Below are positions 28,730 through 38,643 of a stretch of DNA of 64,000 bases, piece by piece (position 1 is the stretch's first letter; the number at the start of each line of letters is the position of its first letter). The stretch is from positions 4,106,435-4,170,434 of the forward strand of contig OY282420.1 in the NCBI GenBank assembly GCA_958295955.1. The letters are read 5' to 3'. The notes beneath the pieces were generated by a model. The model ran no database searches. It was not told where the DNA came from and saw nothing but the letters and a program-made list of their open reading frames with translations. This stretch comes from an uncultured Bryobacterales bacterium. Its GTDB lineage: Bacteria > Acidobacteriota > Terriglobia > Bryobacterales > UBA6623. A program made the position numbers and the translations under genes.

Positions 28730-30463
28730 TTACCGCGGCGTCTCGCGCAGGGTCAGCAAGCGGTTCGCCTCGACCGCGCCGATTTTTTGGGTTCGGCCCG
28801 AAGACCAGCGGATCGAGACTTCCGCCGCATCCGCTTTGCCCAGGCCGAAGTGGGCCCGCAGATCGCTTTGCGAAAGGTAGCTGCCGCCGCTGCGGATTTC
28901 CTTGACCTGCGTTTGCCCCGCCGCGGCGACCGCAACGCGGGCCCCGATGTCGTCGCGGCCTGACGAGGCGAGAGCGCGGACCAGCAGCCAATTGCCCGCC
29001 GGGCCGAAATTCTGCAGCAGGGAAGGCGCCTCGTTCATGTTGACGACCACTATTTCCAAGTCGCCGTCATTGTCGAGGTCTCCGGCGGCGGCGCCGCGCG
29101 AGGAATGCCGCGCGGCGACCGCGGGGCCGGCTTCGGCCGACAGCGGATGAAAGCCGCCGTCCCCGCGGTTCCAGAACAGGAGCCCGGGTTGCGCGAAGCT
29201 CTCGTCGATCGGCGCGCCGTCCACGCTGGGCGCGACGTGTCCGTTGACGGCAAACAGGTCTTGCCGGCCGTCGTGGTCGAAGTCGAGGAATGCCGCTCCC
29301 CAGCCGACGTATTGCGTCACGGTGGCCAGTCCGGCGGCGACCGTTTCGTCGGTAAATGAGAAATCGCCGTTGTTGCGGTAGAGCGTGTTGGTGTCGGACG
29401 CGAAATTCGTCTTGAAAATATCGGTCAGGCCGTCTCCGTCGTAATCGCCCGCGGCCACGCCCATGCCGGCCTGCTCCTGGCCGTCCTCGTTGTAGGCGGC
29501 GCCGGAAAACAGCCCCAACTCCTCGAAGGCGCCGTCCCCCTTATTGCGGTAGAGCAGGCTCGCCGTGGAATCGCAGGCGACATACACGTCAGGCCGGCCG
29601 TCGTTGTCGTAGTCGCCCGTCAGCACCCCCAGGCCGTAGTGGTTGCGCGGCCCGGCGATGCCGGACGCTTCCGAGATGTCGGCGAACTTCCCGCCGCCGT
29701 CGTTTTCGAAAAGGGACATGGTTTCCGCCGGCAATCCCCGCGGCCCGCAGGGGATCGGAACGTTTTGCCAGCGGCACTGCGGCGCCTCGCCGGGCAGAGG
29801 CGTGCCGTCGATGTCGAAGTCCACGTAATGGGCGACGAACAAATCGAGGTCGCCGTCCCGGTCAAAGTCCAGAAAGGCGCAGCCGGAGCTCCAGCGCCGG
29901 CCGGTTTCCGCGAAGCCTCTTGGCCGGCTTTCGTCGGCGAACGTCTCGCCGCCCCGATTGCGCAGCAGGCGGTCCGGCCCCCAGTGGGTGACGAAAAGAT
30001 CCGTGTAGCCGTCGTTATCGACGTCGCCCGCGCAGACGCCCTGCCCCCAGCCGGTTGCGATAAGGCTCGCTTTCTCCGTAACGTCTTCGAAGCGCAACTC
30101 TCCGCGGTTGCGGTAGAGCCGGTGCGGCGGCGCCTTTTCGTTGAGCCGCCCGGAGTTGACGAAAAAAATATCGAGCAGGCCGTCGTTGTCGAAGTCGATC
30201 AGGGCAACGCCCGTTCCGGTAGTCTCCACGAGATAGTTTTTTTCGCCCGCTCCCCCCGATATATTCGCTTGTGCAAGCCCCGCCTCGGCGGCGATGTCGC
30301 GGTAATCGACGGTCGGCGCAACGACGCCTGCGGGCAGGGGAGCCGCGGGGACGGCGCGCCGGTTGCCGACGGCCATGCCCTGCGGGAAGGCGGCGTTCGA
30401 GCCGGCAATAGCCAAAAGCGGCAATAGCAGCTTGCCGACGAGACTGCCGCGGGCGGTCGTCAT
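28730..30463 (-). CDS. CRTAC1 family protein (FG-GAP/VCBS + ASPIC/UnbV)
   Basis: A 577-residue exported protein. After a signal peptide (SLVGKLLLPLLAIAGSNAA) come repeated calcium-binding FG-GAP/VCBS units such as LIDFDNDGLLDIFFVNSG, GDVDNDGYTDLFVTHWG, GDYDNDGRPDVYVACD and GDLDNDGDLEIVVVN, which fold as a seven-bladed integrin-like propeller. The C-terminal 70 residues form the ASPIC/UnbV domain (GDDIGARVAVAAAGQTQVKE, SGGSYLSQSDLRAHFGLGK). Family members sit at the cell surface; they occur in animals as cartilage acidic protein and often next to TPR and TonB genes in bacteria. ATG 30463 is used; an upstream TTG is possible. Divergent from the TonB receptor. Confidence 0.9.
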   Translation of the reverse strand: MTTARGSLVGKLLLPLLAIAGSNAAFPQGMAVGNRRAVPAAPLPAGVVAPTVDYRDIAAEAGLAQANISGGAGEKNYLVETTGTGVALIDFDNDGLLDIFFVNSGRLNEKAPPHRLYRNRGELRFEDVTEKASLIATGWGQGVCAGDVDNDGYTDLFVTHWGPDRLLRNRGGETFADESRPRGFAETGRRWSSGCAFLDFDRDGDLDLFVAHYVDFDIDGTPLPGEAPQCRWQNVPIPCGPRGLPAETMSLFENDGGGKFADISEASGIAGPRNHYGLGVLTGDYDNDGRPDVYVACDSTASLLYRNKGDGAFEELGLFSGAAYNEDGQEQAGMGVAAGDYDGDGLTDIFKTNFASDTNTLYRNNGDFSFTDETVAAGLATVTQYVGWGAAFLDFDHDGRQDLFAVNGHVAPSVDGAPIDESFAQPGLLFWNRGDGGFHPLSAEAGPAVAARHSSRGAAAGDLDNDGDLEIVVVNMNEAPSLLQNFGPAGNWLLVRALASSGRDDIGARVAVAAAGQTQVKEIRSGGSYLSQSDLRAHFGLGKADAAEVSIRWSSGRTQKIGAVEANRLLTLRETPR

Positions 30464-30618
30464 GAGCAATTTCAATGGTAACGGCGAGCAAAAGGCGCGC
30501 GATTCAGGCGCGTTTCGGCTCTTGTAAAAAGTTCGGCCTTTTCCGCCCGCGCTCCCGGCGATGTGCTACACCTAATTAGCCCTGCGGGTATCGTTAGCCA
30601 ATCCATCGGGAGGAACTC

Positions 30619-33600
30619 ATGCGACAAGCGGTTTCGATTTTTCAGTGTTTGCGGGCGCCGGCTCTTGCCGTCGGCGTTCTTTGCTTGGCGCTGTTCGCGC
30701 CGCAGGCGGCCTGGGGGCAAGCGTCGAGCGCGGCCATCAACGGGACGGTCACCGATCAGCAAGGCGCGGTGATACCCGGCGCGGAACTCGTGCTGACCAG
30801 CGTGGAAACCGGCATTGAGCGCCGCGCGGCCTCGAATTCCGTCGGTAATTACGGATTTCCCGGCATTCAGCCGGGCTACTACATCTTGGAGGCTTCGTCC
30901 GACGGATTCCGCACGGCGTCGATCGAGCCGTTCGCGCTGGTGGTGAACCAGACGGCGACGTTCGACATCGCGCTCGAAGTCGGCGCGGTGACCGAATCGG
31001 TGACGGTCGAGGCCATCGGCGCGCAGGTGCAGTCCTCGTCGTCCGAGCTGGGCACCGCCATGACCGAGCAGCAGGTAGTGGACCTGCCGCTGAACGGCAG
31101 AAACTTTACGCAGTTGCTGATTCTGACGCCCGGCGCCTCGCCCGCCAACGTGGCGCAGAACCGGGGCGGCTTCGGCAGCACCTCGGTCGGCTCGTTCAAT
31201 TTCCCGTCGATCAACGGACAGAACAACCGCAGCAATCTTTTCCTGACCGACGGCGTGAACAATCAGGGCATCATGACCAGCACCTACGCGGTTCCGCCGA
31301 TCATCGACGCCATCCAGGAGTTCAAGGTGCAGTCGCACAACGATCTGGCGGAGTTCGGCAGCGTCACCGGCGGCGTCGTCAACGTCGTCACCAAGTCGGG
31401 CACGAACCAGTTGCACGGGACCCTCTGGCACTTCCTGCGCAACGACAATCTGGATGCGCGAGGCACGTTTTTGCCCGAGAAGGCGGCCCTGGCGCAGAAT
31501 ATGTACGGCGCCACGGCCGGAGGCCCCGTCGTCAAGAACAAGACGTTTTTCTTCCTCACCTATCAGGGCTTCAAGAACCGTACGCCATCCAACCGCTGGT
31601 ACCGCGTGCCGACCGAAGCGAATCTGACCGGCGACATGAGCGACTGGGGGAACCAGATCTACGATCCGACCAGCACGGTGAACGACGCGAACGGCAACCC
31701 GACGCGCACGCCGTTCGCCAACAACATGATTCCGGCCGGCCGGCTCGACCAGGGCTTCCTCGGTTATCTGCAGCAAACGGTGCCCAAGCCCAGCGGCGTT
31801 CGCAACGGACTGCGGAATCAACTGGACACTACGGGAACGACCGTGGACCAGCATGAATACTCGGCGCGCTTCGATCACCGTTTCAGCGCGGAAGACTCAG
31901 TGTTCTTCCGCTGGAGCGGCCAGGACAATGCGCAAGACCGCTCGGCCGGCCGGCAGACGCTGTCCAGCTATATAGACGTCGTCAATACCAACATCGGGGC
32001 GAACTGGGTGCATGCCTTCAATCCGACGAGCATCCTGCAGCTTTCTTTCGCCCGCGTCGAAGTCGAGCGGGGCACGGGCAACGCCTTCCGCAATCTGTCC
32101 GACGGCTTCGTTGCGCAGGTCGGCTGGAACCCGGACTTCGCCGGCGGGTTCCGCGGCGGGGACACGTTCGTGCCGAACGTGGGCGTCGCGCAGTTTTTCG
32201 GCGGCGGCGAGCGGATCGCCTTCACGCGGACCAGCGATACTTGGCAGTACAAAGGCGACTACACCAAGATCTACGGCGCGCATACCTTCAAGTTCGGCGC
32301 GGAGTACGACGCCATCGGCCACTTCGGCCAGACCAACGACCACACCAACAACTTCAACAATGTCGGAACCGCCCACCCGGCGAGCCAGGGCAACACCGGC
32401 AGCCCGCTGGCGTCGTTTTTGTTGAACGTCCCTAACTCTTGGTCGCGGCGCGATTTCTTCAAGCGCGCGCGGGGCGGCGGGCTGGTTTCCTTCTTCGCGC
32501 AGGATTCCTGGAAGGCGTCGCAGAAGCTGACGATCAATCTGGGCTTGCGCATGGACAAGACCTTTCTGCCGCAGTTCGGCAACGTCGAAGAGAACACGTT
32601 GCATTTCGGCAACATCGACTACAACACGGGCATCTATTGGCTCACCGCGGCGCCCGAGCCCTGCGCGGCGCGCCGCATCGCGCCCTGCCTGCCGGACCCG
32701 GGCGGCGCGTTGCCCGACGACGTGCGGGTCTCGCCGAACGGCCGTGTGCAAGACCCTTGGCCGATCAGTTGGCAGCCGCGCCTGGGCTTCGCCTACCGCC
32801 TCAACGAACGCACCGCGCTGCGCGCCTCGGCCGGGGTATTCTTCGACAACTTCGCCGGCGTCACGCAGAACACGCAAAACCTCGGCCACACTTGGCCCGA
32901 CGTCGGCCGCAAGCTGCAGAACGGGACCAATCCGGCGTCGGCCAACCCGACGGTGGACGCCAAAAACCCCGCTCCGACCGGAATTCTGCCTACCGCGACG
33001 CCTTACAACCAGGGCGCCTGGTATTCTGACCCGCGCATGGACAACTCCTACTCCATGCAATGGAACTTCGGCATCCAGCGTCAGCTCGACGACGCGACCA
33101 TGGTGCAAATCAACTACGTCGGCTCGGGCAACCGCCGCCTGCCGCTGGGGACGTATTACAACGTGGCGCTGACTCCGGGGCCGGGGGCGACGGCGCGGCA
33201 GCGCGCGCCCTTCCCCCGTTTTCGCGCCAACCACTGGTTGACCTCGTGGGGCCGCGCCAACTACCACGCCCTGCAGACGCAGTACAACCGCCGCTTCGCG
33301 AAGGGCCTGGCCCTCATGGTCAACTACACTTGGGCGAAGGCGATCGACATCGGCTGCACGGGTTGGTTCGTCGAGGCGTGCTCGCAACAGAATCCCTACG
33401 ATTTCAACATCGACCGCAGCGTGTCCGGCATCGACCTCACGCACAACCTGAACTTCAACTGGGTTTACGAGATTCCGTTCCCGACCGACTCCTCGTTGTT
33501 GCGCGCGGTCCTGGGCGGTTGGAAGTTCAACGGCTTGGTGATGTTCGCCTCGGGGCAGCCGTACACTCCGACGATCAACGGCGACTTTGCCGGGACGGGA

Positions 33601-33957
33601 CTGCCGAACGGCCGCTACCGCCCGAACTTCGTCGGCGACCCCTTGCTCGGCAACCCCACGACAGGCCGTTGGATTAACACGGACGCCTTCGCGCCGCCCG
33701 CGCCGGGGACTTTCGGCAACGCCGGCCGCCACAGCCTGCGCCAGGACGGCATCAACAACTTCGATTTTTCGTTCTTCAAGACCATCCCGGTCAACGAGCG
33801 TTTCCGCTTCGAGTACCGCGTGGAGTTCTTCAACGGGTTCAATTCCCCGCAATACGCGGCGCCGGTGAGCAATTTCAGCAATGCGAACTTCGGGCGCGTG
33901 CTCGGTACGTCGAACCGCGCGCGTCAGATTCAGATGGGCCTGAAGTTGTATTTTTAG
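30619..33957 (+). CDS. TonB-dependent receptor, Oar-like
   Basis: A 1112-residue outer-membrane protein of the Acidobacteria type. A signal peptide ends near PQAAWGQ. Residues 33-115 form a carboxypeptidase-regulatory-like beta domain (INGTVTDQQGAVIPGAELVL, GNYGFPGIQPGYY). A plug-like region follows, with VVDLPLNGRNFTQLL and SINGQNNRSNLFLTDGVNN, and the rest is a beta barrel rich in aromatic strand ends, closing with the outer-membrane-type terminal Phe (MGLKLYF). A very good GGGAGG site precedes the ATG. Such receptors take up large ligands, often oligosaccharides or peptides. It lies upstream of TPR and heptaheme cytochrome genes and divergent from CRTAC1. Confidence 0.93.
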   Translation: MRQAVSIFQCLRAPALAVGVLCLALFAPQAAWGQASSAAINGTVTDQQGAVIPGAELVLTSVETGIERRAASNSVGNYGFPGIQPGYYILEASSDGFRTASIEPFALVVNQTATFDIALEVGAVTESVTVEAIGAQVQSSSSELGTAMTEQQVVDLPLNGRNFTQLLILTPGASPANVAQNRGGFGSTSVGSFNFPSINGQNNRSNLFLTDGVNNQGIMTSTYAVPPIIDAIQEFKVQSHNDLAEFGSVTGGVVNVVTKSGTNQLHGTLWHFLRNDNLDARGTFLPEKAALAQNMYGATAGGPVVKNKTFFFLTYQGFKNRTPSNRWYRVPTEANLTGDMSDWGNQIYDPTSTVNDANGNPTRTPFANNMIPAGRLDQGFLGYLQQTVPKPSGVRNGLRNQLDTTGTTVDQHEYSARFDHRFSAEDSVFFRWSGQDNAQDRSAGRQTLSSYIDVVNTNIGANWVHAFNPTSILQLSFARVEVERGTGNAFRNLSDGFVAQVGWNPDFAGGFRGGDTFVPNVGVAQFFGGGERIAFTRTSDTWQYKGDYTKIYGAHTFKFGAEYDAIGHFGQTNDHTNNFNNVGTAHPASQGNTGSPLASFLLNVPNSWSRRDFFKRARGGGLVSFFAQDSWKASQKLTINLGLRMDKTFLPQFGNVEENTLHFGNIDYNTGIYWLTAAPEPCAARRIAPCLPDPGGALPDDVRVSPNGRVQDPWPISWQPRLGFAYRLNERTALRASAGVFFDNFAGVTQNTQNLGHTWPDVGRKLQNGTNPASANPTVDAKNPAPTGILPTATPYNQGAWYSDPRMDNSYSMQWNFGIQRQLDDATMVQINYVGSGNRRLPLGTYYNVALTPGPGATARQRAPFPRFRANHWLTSWGRANYHALQTQYNRRFAKGLALMVNYTWAKAIDIGCTGWFVEACSQQNPYDFNIDRSVSGIDLTHNLNFNWVYEIPFPTDSSLLRAVLGGWKFNGLVMFASGQPYTPTINGDFAGTGLPNGRYRPNFVGDPLLGNPTTGRWINTDAFAPPAPGTFGNAGRHSLRQDGINNFDFSFFKTIPVNERFRFEYRVEFFNGFNSPQYAAPVSNFSNANFGRVLGTSNRARQIQMGLKLYF

Positions 33958-33968
33958 TCCGGTTTCAG

Positions 33969-33999
33969 GGGCGCCCGCTCGTCGATGCGGCGGGCGTCC
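33969..33999 (+). terminator. Ten-base-pair hairpin after the TonB receptor
   Basis: GGGCGCCCGC (33969-33978) pairs with GCGGGCGTCC (33990-33999) across an 11-base loop, with one G-U pair, 12 bases after the receptor stop. It is not followed by a T run but is the strongest stem in the 112-base gap and may mark the 3' end of the receptor mRNA. Confidence 0.45.
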
Positions 34000-34069
34000 T
34001 CGCCTTGTCCGCGCCCCGTATCGTTCAATCTCGGGGTTCCGGCTACGATAAAGGCGGGCGCCTTCCGCC

Positions 34070-35983
34070 ATGCGCACGATTCGACCCGTTCTCGCGGCGC
34101 TGCTCGCCTGTTCTGCGGCGTCCGCGCAGACGCCCACGCCCGCGGACGTCTCGACGATCATGGCCTCGGCCGAGCGCCAACGTCAGGCCGGCGACAACGG
34201 CGCTGCGCTCGCCGCGCTTGAAGACGCCGCCGCGGCCTATCCCGGCCAAGCCTTGCCGCTCTTCAACCTGGGCGCCGTTTACGGCGAGTTGGGCCGTTAC
34301 GAGGAGGCCGCCGGCGCGCTGCGGCGAGGCTTGGCGCTCGACCCCGGCAACGCGGACGCTCATCTGACGCTGGCCAAGGCGCGCATCGGCTTGCACGACT
34401 ATGCAGGCGCGTTGGATTCCGCCGGCCGCTATGCCGAGATCGCCGGAGCCGCGGCCTCGAATTTCGATTTCCACTACGTCCGCGGAGTGGGGCTGCGCCG
34501 TCTTGCCCGGTTGGACGAGGCCGAAGCGGAGTTGCGCAAGGCCGTTGCCCTGAACGGCGGTCACGCGGACGCCCTGTACAACCTCGGCTTCGTGTGCTCG
34601 CGCCGGGGCCGTTACAACGAAGCGCGCGCTCTGCTGGAGAACGCCCGGCGAATCGATCCCGAATCGCAGGACATAAGGTACCGGTTGGCGGCCGTGCTCA
34701 AAAAGCTGGGAGAGACCGCCGCCGCCGCCCGCGAGCTCGATGCCTTCCGCGAAGCGAAAGAACGCGCGCAGCGGCAAACCCGCGCGGCGGTGTCCGTCGA
34801 GCAGGGCCGGCGCGCCCTGCAAGGCGGCGATGCGCAAAAGGCGAAAGATTTTTTTCAGCAGGCCATCCGCCACGAGGCGGACAACACGGAGGCGCACAAC
34901 AGCCTGGGCGTCGCTTACGGCAGGCTGGGCAGAAACGACTTGGCGGAATTGATGTTCGCCAAGGCAATCGCTCTTCGAGGGGACTACGCCGAGGCCCATG
35001 TCAACCTGGCGCTCACGCTGGCGGCGCGCGGGAAGCTCGACGAGGCACGGACGCGGATCGAAGAGGCATTGCGCCTGGAGCCGGAGAACCCGGCGGCGCA
35101 CGAAGCGGCGGGCATGATCCTGACCCGGCTCGGCCGCGCCGCAGACGCGCTGCCGCATTTCCGCAAAGTTGCCGCCGCCCGGCCCGGAGACGCCGCCGCC
35201 CGCCTGAACGTGGGCATCGCCCTCGCCGAGAGCCGCCGGACGGCCGAGGCGCTGGTCGAATTTGCGCGCGCGGTCGAGATGAGCCCCGATGCGGCGCGTC
35301 CGCGCTACAATCGCGGCCGCGCTCTGCGCGATCTCGGCAGAACCGACGAAGCCGTAGCCGAATTGCGGCGGGCCGTCGCCATCGATTCCGGCTTTGCGTC
35401 GGCTCTGGAGGCGCTGGCGTCGATCGAGGCCGAGCAGGGCGACTTCGAGCGCTCCGCCGAGTTGTGGGCGCGCGTCGTCGAGTTGCGGCCGGAAAACGCC
35501 GATGCGCACTACGATCTCGGGCGCTCGCTCATGCAACTCGGGCGCAAGGATGAAGCCGTGACGCACTGGCGGCGCGCCGCGGAACTCGACCCCATGCACA
35601 AAGAGGCGCTCTACAATCTGGCCCAGGCGCTGCATCGGTCCGACCCCGAAAGCGCGCGCGGCTACCGGCTGCGCTTCCAGGCGCTGAAGTCAGAGGAGCA
35701 GGTGACCGACCGCGCCGGAACCCTCTGGAATTTCGCGCTTGCGGCCGCCGCGAAGAAAGATTGGGAGCAGGCGTTCTCGCTGTTTCAGCAGGCGCTGGAT
35801 GTCTGCGGCGATTGTCCGGCAAAGGGCGGCATCCACAAGAATTTCGGCTTGACCTACGGCCATGCGGGGGACTATGCGAACGCCGAGCGCGAGCTCGAGG
35901 CCGCGCGCGAACTGTTGCCGGACGACGGAGAGATCGCGCGGGCGCTGGCTATTGTCCGCGCTTCCGGCGGGCGGACGCAATGA
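34070..35983 (+). CDS. Exported TPR-repeat protein
   Basis: A 637-residue alpha-solenoid. A short signal peptide (RTIRPVLAALLACSAASAQ) is followed by a dozen or more tetratricopeptide units, for example ALPLFNLGAVYGELGRYEEA, HADALYNLGFVCSRRGRYNE, AHNSLGVAYGRLGRNDLAEL and NADAHYDLGRSLMQLGRKDE. TPR arrays bind other proteins. The stop overlaps the cytochrome start (ATGA at 35980-35983), so the two are made together, and the cytochrome itself ends in TPR units. This suggests the two solenoids assemble into one periplasmic complex, perhaps with the surface CRTAC1 protein. Confidence 0.88.
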   Translation: MRTIRPVLAALLACSAASAQTPTPADVSTIMASAERQRQAGDNGAALAALEDAAAAYPGQALPLFNLGAVYGELGRYEEAAGALRRGLALDPGNADAHLTLAKARIGLHDYAGALDSAGRYAEIAGAAASNFDFHYVRGVGLRRLARLDEAEAELRKAVALNGGHADALYNLGFVCSRRGRYNEARALLENARRIDPESQDIRYRLAAVLKKLGETAAAARELDAFREAKERAQRQTRAAVSVEQGRRALQGGDAQKAKDFFQQAIRHEADNTEAHNSLGVAYGRLGRNDLAELMFAKAIALRGDYAEAHVNLALTLAARGKLDEARTRIEEALRLEPENPAAHEAAGMILTRLGRAADALPHFRKVAAARPGDAAARLNVGIALAESRRTAEALVEFARAVEMSPDAARPRYNRGRALRDLGRTDEAVAELRRAVAIDSGFASALEALASIEAEQGDFERSAELWARVVELRPENADAHYDLGRSLMQLGRKDEAVTHWRRAAELDPMHKEALYNLAQALHRSDPESARGYRLRFQALKSEEQVTDRAGTLWNFALAAAAKKDWEQAFSLFQQALDVCGDCPAKGGIHKNFGLTYGHAGDYANAERELEAARELLPDDGEIARALAIVRASGGRTQ

Positions 35984-37569
35984 CGCCGCTGCGTTTGGGC
36001 GTTTTTGCCGGCTGCCTGCTGCTCTTGCCTGCAGGCGGCGGCGCGTCGGAGCGCTGCGCCGCCTGTCACCCCGATGAAGTTGCGGCGTATCTGCGAACGG
36101 GCATGGGCCGGTCGATCGGCCGACCTTCCGCGTTGCAACCCGCCGGCGCATACCGCCACGGACTTTCGAAAACGTCTTACGCGATTACCGCGGATTCCTC
36201 CGGCATGACCCAGCGCATCGCGCGCGGCGGACTCTCCGCCGAGTATGCGGTGGACTACGTAATCGGCTCGGGCAATGCCGCGTTCGGCTACCTCGTCAGC
36301 GCCGGCAACGCCGTTTTTCAATCGCCCATCGCCTACTACGCCAAACGGAAGCGATGGGGCGCCGCTCCCGGTATGGAGCGATACGCGGCGCCCGACTTCA
36401 CGCGGCCCGTGACCCCGGAGTGCCTTTGGTGCCATGCCGGACGCCCTCTGCCGCTGCCGCAAACCGTGAACCGTTACGAGCAGCCGGTTTTCGCGGTCGC
36501 GGCGATTTCCTGCGAGCGTTGTCACGGCGATGTCCGGGCGCATCTCGGTGAGCCGGCAGCCGCGAATATCGTCAACCCGGCCAAGTTGCCGCCCGTTGAA
36601 AGAGACAGCGTTTGCGAGCAGTGCCATCTCTCGGGCGTTGTCCGCATTCTCAATCCGGGCAAGAGCTTCGGCTCGTACCGTCCGGGCGAGAAGCTCGAAA
36701 GCGCGTTTTCGGTATTCACGGCCGCGCAGCCCGACGCCGGCCGGCCTTTCCAAGTCGTCAGCCACGTCGAGCAACTCGCTCTGAGCCGCTGCGCCCAAAG
36801 CAGCAAAGGGCAACTATGGTGCGGTACGTGCCACAACCCGCACGCTGAACCGCAGGCGCCGTCCGCGTATTTCCGCGAGCGCTGCCTGGACTGCCACGGG
36901 CCGACGTTGGCCGCCGACCACGGCGCGCCGGCGCGCGACTGCATCGGCTGTCACATGCCCAAGCGGCAGTCTTGGGACAGCGGACACAGCGCCTTCACCG
37001 ATCACAGAATCGCGGCGCATCCCGCCCGGACCGCAACGCCGGCAGAGGAGCCGCCTGCGGCGATTCGCGCCTGGCGCGCGGCGCCGGAGCCGCCGGCAAG
37101 CCGCAATCTTGGTCTGGCGAACGTCATGGTCGGACGGCAACGGAACTCGCCGCGGCATGCCGCGAACGGACTCGACCTGCTGCGTTCCGTAGAAGACGAA
37201 TTTGCGGACGATGCGGACTTCCTGGAAGGGTTGGGGACGGCCTTTGTGCTCACGGGGGAGCCGCGCAAAGGGCGGGATTATCTGCAAAAAGCGGTCGAGG
37301 CGCAGCCCGGCCATGCGCTGCGGCGCCTGTCTTTGGCCGCGGCCTGGTGGGAGCTCGGCGCCGCGCGCGAAGCAACCGCCGCTCTGGAGGCCGCAATTCG
37401 CCTCGACCCTTATCTGGAATCGGCGTACCGCATGTTGGCCCGCGTGTACGCCGATACGGGCCGGCCCGAGAAGGTTCGGGAGACGTGGCGGCGGTATCTC
37501 GAGCATCGGCCGCGGAGCATCGAAGCGCGCCGGCAAGCGGCGCTCGCGCCGGGGGCTCTCGACCGGTAA
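35980..37569 (+). CDS. Seven-heme cytochrome c fused to TPR repeats
   Basis: A 529-residue exported protein. The signal peptide ends near GGGASERCAACH. Seven CxxCH heme sites are visible in order: CAACH, CLWCH, CERCH, CEQCH, CGTCH, CLDCH and CIGCH, spread over residues 25-330. This resembles the cytochrome c554/multiheme family. From about residue 370 the chain becomes TPR-like (LGTAFVLTGEPRKGRDYLQK, YRMLARVYADTGRPEKVRET). Multiheme proteins carry electrons or reduce small nitrogen or sulfur compounds; the heme set alone does not show which. The start overlaps the upstream TPR gene by four bases. Confidence 0.9.
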   Translation: MTPLRLGVFAGCLLLLPAGGGASERCAACHPDEVAAYLRTGMGRSIGRPSALQPAGAYRHGLSKTSYAITADSSGMTQRIARGGLSAEYAVDYVIGSGNAAFGYLVSAGNAVFQSPIAYYAKRKRWGAAPGMERYAAPDFTRPVTPECLWCHAGRPLPLPQTVNRYEQPVFAVAAISCERCHGDVRAHLGEPAAANIVNPAKLPPVERDSVCEQCHLSGVVRILNPGKSFGSYRPGEKLESAFSVFTAAQPDAGRPFQVVSHVEQLALSRCAQSSKGQLWCGTCHNPHAEPQAPSAYFRERCLDCHGPTLAADHGAPARDCIGCHMPKRQSWDSGHSAFTDHRIAAHPARTATPAEEPPAAIRAWRAAPEPPASRNLGLANVMVGRQRNSPRHAANGLDLLRSVEDEFADDADFLEGLGTAFVLTGEPRKGRDYLQKAVEAQPGHALRRLSLAAAWWELGAAREATAALEAAIRLDPYLESAYRMLARVYADTGRPEKVRETWRRYLEHRPRSIEARRQAALAPGALDR

Positions 37570-37581
37570 TGCGGAACGGCT

Positions 37582-38295
37582 TCATTGCGCAACCGCCGCC
37601 TGCGCTTGCTTTTCTTCAGACGCGAATTCTTCTTTGGCAATCCTGGCGATAACCTCGTCGCTGAGTTCCGAATAGTATCCGTATTTCTCCCGAACCTTGT
37701 GCAGTTCTCTGTGAAACGCCCGGATTTTGTCCTTATCGCTCAACCCCTTCATTGATCGCTTGACTCTTCTCTCAGCTGCGGTGATGTGACCTACTATCTG
37801 CAGCTTGCGCTTCTTGGCTGAATCAGCTATCGCAGCGCCTTGATGTTCGCGCATATCCGCGAGATCCATATGGCCATTCAAATACGCAAACGCTAGAGTA
37901 GAACCGGTACCATCACTATCGGTTTTTGCGTTTACATCCGCTCCGGCATCCACAAGCAGATTTGCAACTGCCGCCGCTCCATTGATTGCGGCATAGTGCA
38001 GCGGAGCAAAGCCCATAGTATCTCTCGCATCCGCATCGGCCCCGAATCGCAAGAGTTCTGAAACATATAGATAACCCGAGTCCCTGGGCCCCGAAACAGC
38101 GTAATGCAAGGCTGTTTTACCGTAAGCGTCAACATCGTTGGGGTTGCGCCCCGATTGCAGAAGTCCAACGAGACGCTGCAAATCGCCCTCTCTGACTGCC
38201 TCGTGCAATGGATGGTTTCGTTCCCGGGTTGTCGCGGGCAGGGCCGTCAAGCACAACAGCGCAGCCGTTGCCGTACTTCTTTTCAACATTTTCAT
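37582..38295 (-). CDS. Secreted ankyrin-repeat protein
   Basis: A 237-residue protein with a signal peptide (KMLKRSTATAALLCLTALPA). Residues 30-150 carry about four ankyrin units: NHPLHEAVREGDLQRLVGLL, GKTALHYAVSGP, GFAPLHYAAINGAAAVANLL and a weaker fourth. A charged helical tail rich in Lys and Glu follows. It starts at ATG 38295 with an AGAGAAG site. Base composition is clearly lower in GC than its neighbours: I count 50% and 57% GC in the 60-base lines at 37741 and 37801. Ankyrin repeats bind proteins; the gene may be acquired. Its 3' end is 12 bases from the convergent cytochrome gene. Confidence 0.85.
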   Translation of the reverse strand: MKMLKRSTATAALLCLTALPATTRERNHPLHEAVREGDLQRLVGLLQSGRNPNDVDAYGKTALHYAVSGPRDSGYLYVSELLRFGADADARDTMGFAPLHYAAINGAAAVANLLVDAGADVNAKTDSDGTGSTLAFAYLNGHMDLADMREHQGAAIADSAKKRKLQIVGHITAAERRVKRSMKGLSDKDKIRAFHRELHKVREKYGYYSELSDEVIARIAKEEFASEEKQAQAAVAQ

Positions 38296-38643
38296 GTCTT
38301 CTCTTCCCAAGCCGCATTCAGAGCGTAGTTGATTATCGAACAGCGGTGATTCCGGGAAGCTCTGCCGTGCGCCTGTGAGTCGTCGCTTCTCAATGCTCCC
38401 GTTCGAGCCGCAAGATACGGTCGTCGAAGCGCGACACGGCGGCCTGCCGTAAGCGGATTACGCAGCGCGGGACCGCAGGGTTCCCGGGTATCGGAGCCGC
38501 GCCGCCTGTTTTCGCCCCGTTCGCCGCCGCTTGCTCCTTGCGCCTTTCCGCGCTATGCTGATTAGGTTCGCCGGGCTTCCGCCCTTTTCCTCCACGGCGA
38601 TCGACCGTGAACCCGTCCGCCGAGTGCGGTTGTCCTCTCCCTC
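38296..38643. other. 348-base intergenic region before rho
   Basis: No convincing gene is seen. The left half shares the lower GC of the ankyrin gene. The right half holds a candidate promoter for rho. A minus-strand open frame of 80 codons crosses the rho start but is Arg-rich and has no ribosome site, so it is not called. No tRNA or riboswitch fold could be recognised. Confidence 0.5.
38531..38559 (+). promoter_or_regulatory. Candidate rho promoter
   Basis: TTGCTC (38531-38536) and TATGCT (38554-38559) are separated by exactly 17 bases, giving a leader of about 78 bases before ATG 38644. Rho leaders are often used for autoregulation, which a leader of this length would allow. Confidence 0.35.

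Follow-up and report, generated by a model that had tools for sequence, protein, structure and literature searches.

Four neighbouring genes in a Bryobacterales genome encode a CRTAC1-type protein, an Oar-like outer-membrane receptor, a TPR solenoid protein and a TPR-tailed heptaheme cytochrome (Table 1). They were analysed within a stretch of 64,000 nucleotides, referred to here as the window. Our leading explanation, tentative when taken as a whole, is that the receptor, TPR and CRTAC1 proteins form an outer-membrane module and that this module has been joined by a TPR-tailed heptaheme electron carrier. We are confident that the first three genes make up a unit, and we consider a functional link between that unit and the cytochrome to be probable; the full mechanism proposed below is on the doubtful side of even. 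The parts are ordinary, and their combination is undescribed but recurrent.

Table 1. Features of the locus, in window positions
Feature	Position	Strand	Basis
CRTAC1-type protein (FG-GAP repeats and ASPIC/UnbV), N-terminal signal-like stretch	28730..30475	-	Pfam; PDB; sister-genus partner
Oar-like outer-membrane receptor, CarboxypepD_reg and beta-barrel PF25183, signal-like N-terminus	30619..33957	+	Pfam; orthologs
TPR solenoid protein, about 13 repeats, signal-like N-terminus	34070..35983	+	Pfam; orthologs
Heptaheme c-type cytochrome with TPR tail	35980..37569	+	Pfam; motif count; AlphaFold model
Heme domain of cytochrome, residues 22-345, seven CxxCH, OcwA-like fold	36043..37014	+	Model; profile; fold match
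Cys271 codon of cytochrome, candidate heme ligand	36790..36792	+	Alignment of 62 family members
C-terminal TPR tail of cytochrome, residues 372-521	37093..37542	+	Pfam; model; structural matches to TPR proteins

A preliminary description of this DNA had identified the same four genes, and Pfam analysis confirmed both their positions and their identities. The CRTAC1-type protein matched FG-GAP_3 (1e-56) and UnbV_ASPIC (5e-20), which places it in the CRTAC1/ASPIC-UnbV family, and its PDB match was cartilage acidic protein 1 (9etn; E, 1.1e-21). The receptor has the Oar-like domain combination, with matches to CarboxypepD_reg (1e-18) and OMP_b-brl_4 (PF25183; 3.5e-193); no separate plug domain was matched in Pfam at an E value of <=0.001. 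The TPR solenoid matched TPR_2 (1.4e-61). As had been described, the CRTAC1 and receptor genes are divergent, with their starts 143 bp apart, and the stop codon of the TPR gene shares 4 bases (ATGA) with the start codon of the cytochrome gene. The receptor and TPR genes are separated by 112 bp, and it is therefore plausible that the receptor, TPR and cytochrome genes form a single predicted operon. The gene at 37582-38310 (- strand) encodes an ankyrin-repeat-like protein with a signal-like N-terminus. Its GC content is 52.8% (GC3, 0.53) versus 65% for the window, and the gene looks like a recent acquisition. The source bacterium is a relative of sponge- and coral-associated Acidobacteriota, and sponge symbionts have often been reported to carry ankyrin-repeat proteins.

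Evidence for a three-gene unit comes from the sister genus. Orthologs of the receptor (72 to 76% identical) were found in 10 of 11 sister-genus genomes, and the order and orientation of the trio are kept in 9 of the 11, without the cytochrome. The CRTAC1 partner in these genomes (57 to 64% identical) lies divergently on the other side of the receptor gene, and the TPR ortholog (43 to 52% identical, mostly 49 to 52%) follows the receptor directly; the copy at 43% carries an internal stop codon. Synteny between the window and the sister genus does not extend beyond the trio. The window locus shows the pattern by which we define the module in Bryobacterales, namely, CRTAC1 divergent from the receptor and TPR downstream of it, and the sequence comparisons mark the receptor-TPR pair as its tightest unit. 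At one further sister-genus locus (L165; G006:C1:2746000-2765900), a receptor copy at 73% identity has only a 100-aa piece of CRTAC1 nearby and lacks the TPR gene; this locus looks like a second trio in the course of decay.

Clustering is also evident within this genome. The preliminary description had held that CRTAC1, TPR and receptor genes cluster in Acidobacteria, and here a receptor gene lies no more than 5 kb from 9 of the 16 CRTAC1 genes, compared with 1.8 expected, a count that none of 5,000 random placements reached (gene positions were taken from the family searches). The idea of a conserved four-gene set had to be rejected for the sister genus, in which the cytochrome is missing from the trio and its ortholog lies elsewhere. 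For the twelve receptors of the sister genus that are included in the tree, the surrounding 12 kb contained no cytochrome of the family; a few of these loci are cut by contig ends. What the wider search of Bryobacterales did return was related receptor-TPR pairs beside cytochromes of other clades, both in a second family of the order and at two sister-genus loci.

The fusion of a multiheme domain to TPR units is no peculiarity of this locus but marks a widespread acidobacterial family. Scanning of genome contigs yielded 135 confirmed relatives of the cytochrome, and loci were analysed for the best 80 of the 135. Nearly all of these 80 are labelled Acidobacteriota; two (L041 and L059) are labelled Pseudomonadota and come from bog genomes that are possibly misbinned. 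The fusion was present in 42 of 61 genomes (this genome and 60 relatives) at an E value of <=1e-20, and a heme-domain profile detected the family in 20 of 149 genomes sampled across the phylum at <=1e-60. Four relatives (L032, L037, L041 and L045) have nine CxxCH motifs and are 860 to 950 aa long. This genome encodes one full-length member of the family, versus 33 PSCyt2 (DUF1549) matches in its 4.58 Mb. Our literature search on TPR-tailed OcwA-related cytochromes of Acidobacteriota found no paper on the family.

Heptaheme-TPR cytochromes accompany this receptor type repeatedly. In the second family (f3; L159 to L163), at L053, L079 and L081 (contig labels, Candidatus Sulfopaludibacter or Acidobacteria) and at the sister-genus loci L167 (G006) and L166 (G004), receptors about 48 to 49% identical occur with such cytochromes. 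These larger clusters mostly contain a TPR gene and CRTAC1, and several include PSCyt/DUF1549/DUF1553, DUF1501, GH29 alpha-fucosidase or PQQ genes. L159 to L163, L079 and L081 have one or two heptaheme-TPR cytochromes each, several of them in a tail-to-tail arrangement. Receptor and TPR genes overlap or abut at six of the loci examined and CRTAC1 and cytochrome genes do so at five, second-family clusters being included in both counts. In the cytochrome tree, the proteins of the larger clusters fall into two clades, both separate from that of the window protein, and at least three clades of heptaheme-TPR cytochromes thus occur with the same receptor type. The receptor type has therefore been joined by cytochromes repeatedly, or an old link has often been broken. 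Consistent with either, the receptor tree requires 5 changes in cytochrome linkage, which may represent several gains or a single gain followed by losses from one ancestral link.

The alternative that has to be weighed most carefully is a chance neighbourhood, in which an independent cytochrome gene landed beside the conserved trio and later came to overlap it. The absence of the cytochrome from the sister-genus trio means that a chance arrival in this genome is possible, and the cytochromes nearest to that of the window (56% identical) have UxuA-like genes as neighbours and PPDK or ADP-ribosylglycohydrolase genes in the vicinity; the window protein is sister to these UxuA-context cytochromes in the tree (support, 99*). 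Furthermore, the receptor and CRTAC1 families are large, with 42 and 16 genes, respectively, on the main contig of this genome, so some proximity is expected and proximity alone weighs little against chance. Two observations argue the other way. Of 49 cytochromes, 12 have a CRTAC1 gene no more than 5 kb away, compared with 1.6 expected, an enrichment of about 7-fold (nine distinct loci; Poisson P, 4e-5), although the figure is generous, as the ten genomes were picked by hand and several were chosen for their larger clusters. In addition, the receptor type is shared by loci whose cytochromes belong to several clades, which makes it probable that the cytochrome is a functional addition. We regard a chance neighbourhood as unlikely but worth keeping in view. 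The earlier proposal that the cytochrome belongs with the receptor and CRTAC1 genes accordingly survives in part: the linkage to CRTAC1 and to the receptor type recurs in several clades, but the sister genus does not preserve the exact set of four genes.

Seven CxxCH motifs had been counted in the cytochrome, and we find exactly seven, at residues 26, 148, 178, 212, 281, 302 and 321, where 0.016 would be expected from the composition of the protein. That the protein ends in TPR units of its own was likewise upheld, both by matches that pass the Pfam cut-offs and by a helical solenoid at about residues 372 to 521 in the full-length AlphaFold model (mean pLDDT, 87.6). The model places a beta domain at residues ~56 to 128, inserted in the heme domain, which was also modelled separately (mean pLDDT, 84.7). 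In an alignment of 62 family members, all seven CxxCH motifs are kept and the C-terminal TPR region aligns throughout. Outside the motifs, the invariant residues are M42, H188, C271, H288, M326 and H342, with H336 present in 61 of the 62. Seven near-invariant residues of ligand type for seven hemes suggest mixed axial ligation, for which the candidates are four His, two Met and one Cys. The Cys in question, Cys271, lies outside the CxxCH motifs, making His/Cys ligation of one heme possible.

A profile search of the PDB with the heme domain returned OcwA as the best match (E, 1.8e-17). OcwA was also the top structural match to the full-length model in VIA-align (Z, 14.9; 273 residues at 3.3 A; model residues 21 to 343), and the matches below it were all TPR or other helical-repeat proteins. 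Sequence and predicted fold thus agree in presenting the heme domain as a distant relative of OcwA. This kinship favours a different reading, that the cytochrome is an OcwA-like cell-surface terminal reductase for extracellular acceptors (humics, Fe(III)) and the receptor a separate system. We consider this improbable: the protein carries seven hemes against the nine of OcwA, seven near-invariant candidate ligands suggest that all seven hemes are fully coordinated, the protein lacks a His-His motif of the kind that lies over the two open hemes of OcwA (PMC6703420), and Pfam recognised no porin-cytochrome conduit at the locus.

The preliminary description had proposed mutual docking of the TPR solenoid and the cytochrome tail, which would give a redox scaffold in the periplasm that is tied to ligand uptake, a model favoured by the ATGA overlap and by TPR genes that lie directly and closely upstream of the cytochrome at L020, L048 and L059, and upstream at L014 and L070; it now appears quite unlikely, since it is the receptor with which the solenoid is conservedly paired, even at loci that have no cytochrome nearby, and TPR-TPR docking is thereby weakened as the core idea. 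Among the loci examined, TPR and cytochrome genes overlap or abut in the window only and are closely spaced at just three others, a natural fusion of the solenoid to a cytochrome was sought and not found, and a TPR gene lies within 5 kb at 20 of 80 cytochrome loci (the best 80 of 135, many of them on short contigs).

Returning to the preferred explanation of a receptor-TPR-CRTAC1 module joined by an electron carrier, the receptor would take up an extracellular ligand, and the TPR protein and the CRTAC1 propeller would serve as accessory binding proteins, SusCD-like in logic with no homology to SusCD implied. The cytochrome would be exported, and its TPR tail would dock to a protein of the module or to a shared partner; it would accept the electrons released by a periplasmic or surface oxidation and then pass them on. 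That the ligand may be a carbohydrate is suggested solely by the neighbours seen in the larger, related clusters, which include PSCyt, DUF1501, fucosidase and PQQ genes. In Verrucomicrobia, PSCyt genes are often found near sulfatase genes, and some are fused to carbohydrate-binding modules (PMC5615132). At its most speculative, the locus could be a redox-coupled counterpart of SusCD, in which oxidation of captured ligands, possibly glycans, takes place at the receptor complex and heptahemes with mixed ligation, docked through their TPR units, carry the electrons off; we would give this long odds. The recurrence of the cytochrome with the receptor type and CRTAC1, in some cases together with carbohydrate-linked genes, offers a testable tie between electron transfer and the uptake of nutrients. 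Acidobacteriota often carry TPR-tailed OcwA-related cytochromes, and the receptors and multiheme cytochromes of this phylum have received little study.

Several known systems resemble parts of the locus. The receptor shares its N-terminal CarboxypepD_reg domain and a full-length barrel match with the Oar-like receptors of Acidobacteriota (PF25183), from which we found no difference; it is an ordinary member of that large family. Gene clusters of the PSCyt/DUF1549-DUF1553 and DUF1501 kind, of which the first description came from PVC bacteria (PMC5615132), have counterparts in the related clusters that carry this receptor type, but the window itself (G000:C1:4106435-4170434) has no PSCyt2 match, the nearest being at 4179728 and all 33 lying elsewhere in the genome. 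As in MtrAB-type conduits, a gene for an outer-membrane barrel lies near a multiheme cytochrome gene; however, this barrel matches CarboxypepD_reg models and PF25183 only, rather than models of the MtrB/PioB type, and the cytochrome is globular with a TPR tail. Like SusC/SusD of Bacteroidota, the locus has adjacent genes for a receptor and a helical-repeat accessory protein, a likeness of working only, and the 25 Pfam families matched by the TPR protein at <=0.001 do not include SusD. For the cytochrome, the closest likeness is to OcwA, the nonaheme terminal reductase of Thermincola (PDB 6i5b), in which two hemes are open under His-His motifs and the C terminus is a three-helix bundle (PMC6703420). 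The window cytochrome shares the sequence and fold of its heme domain, but it comes from a different phylum, has seven hemes rather than nine, contains no HH, the motif that in OcwA lies over penta-coordinate hemes, and ends in a TPR solenoid.
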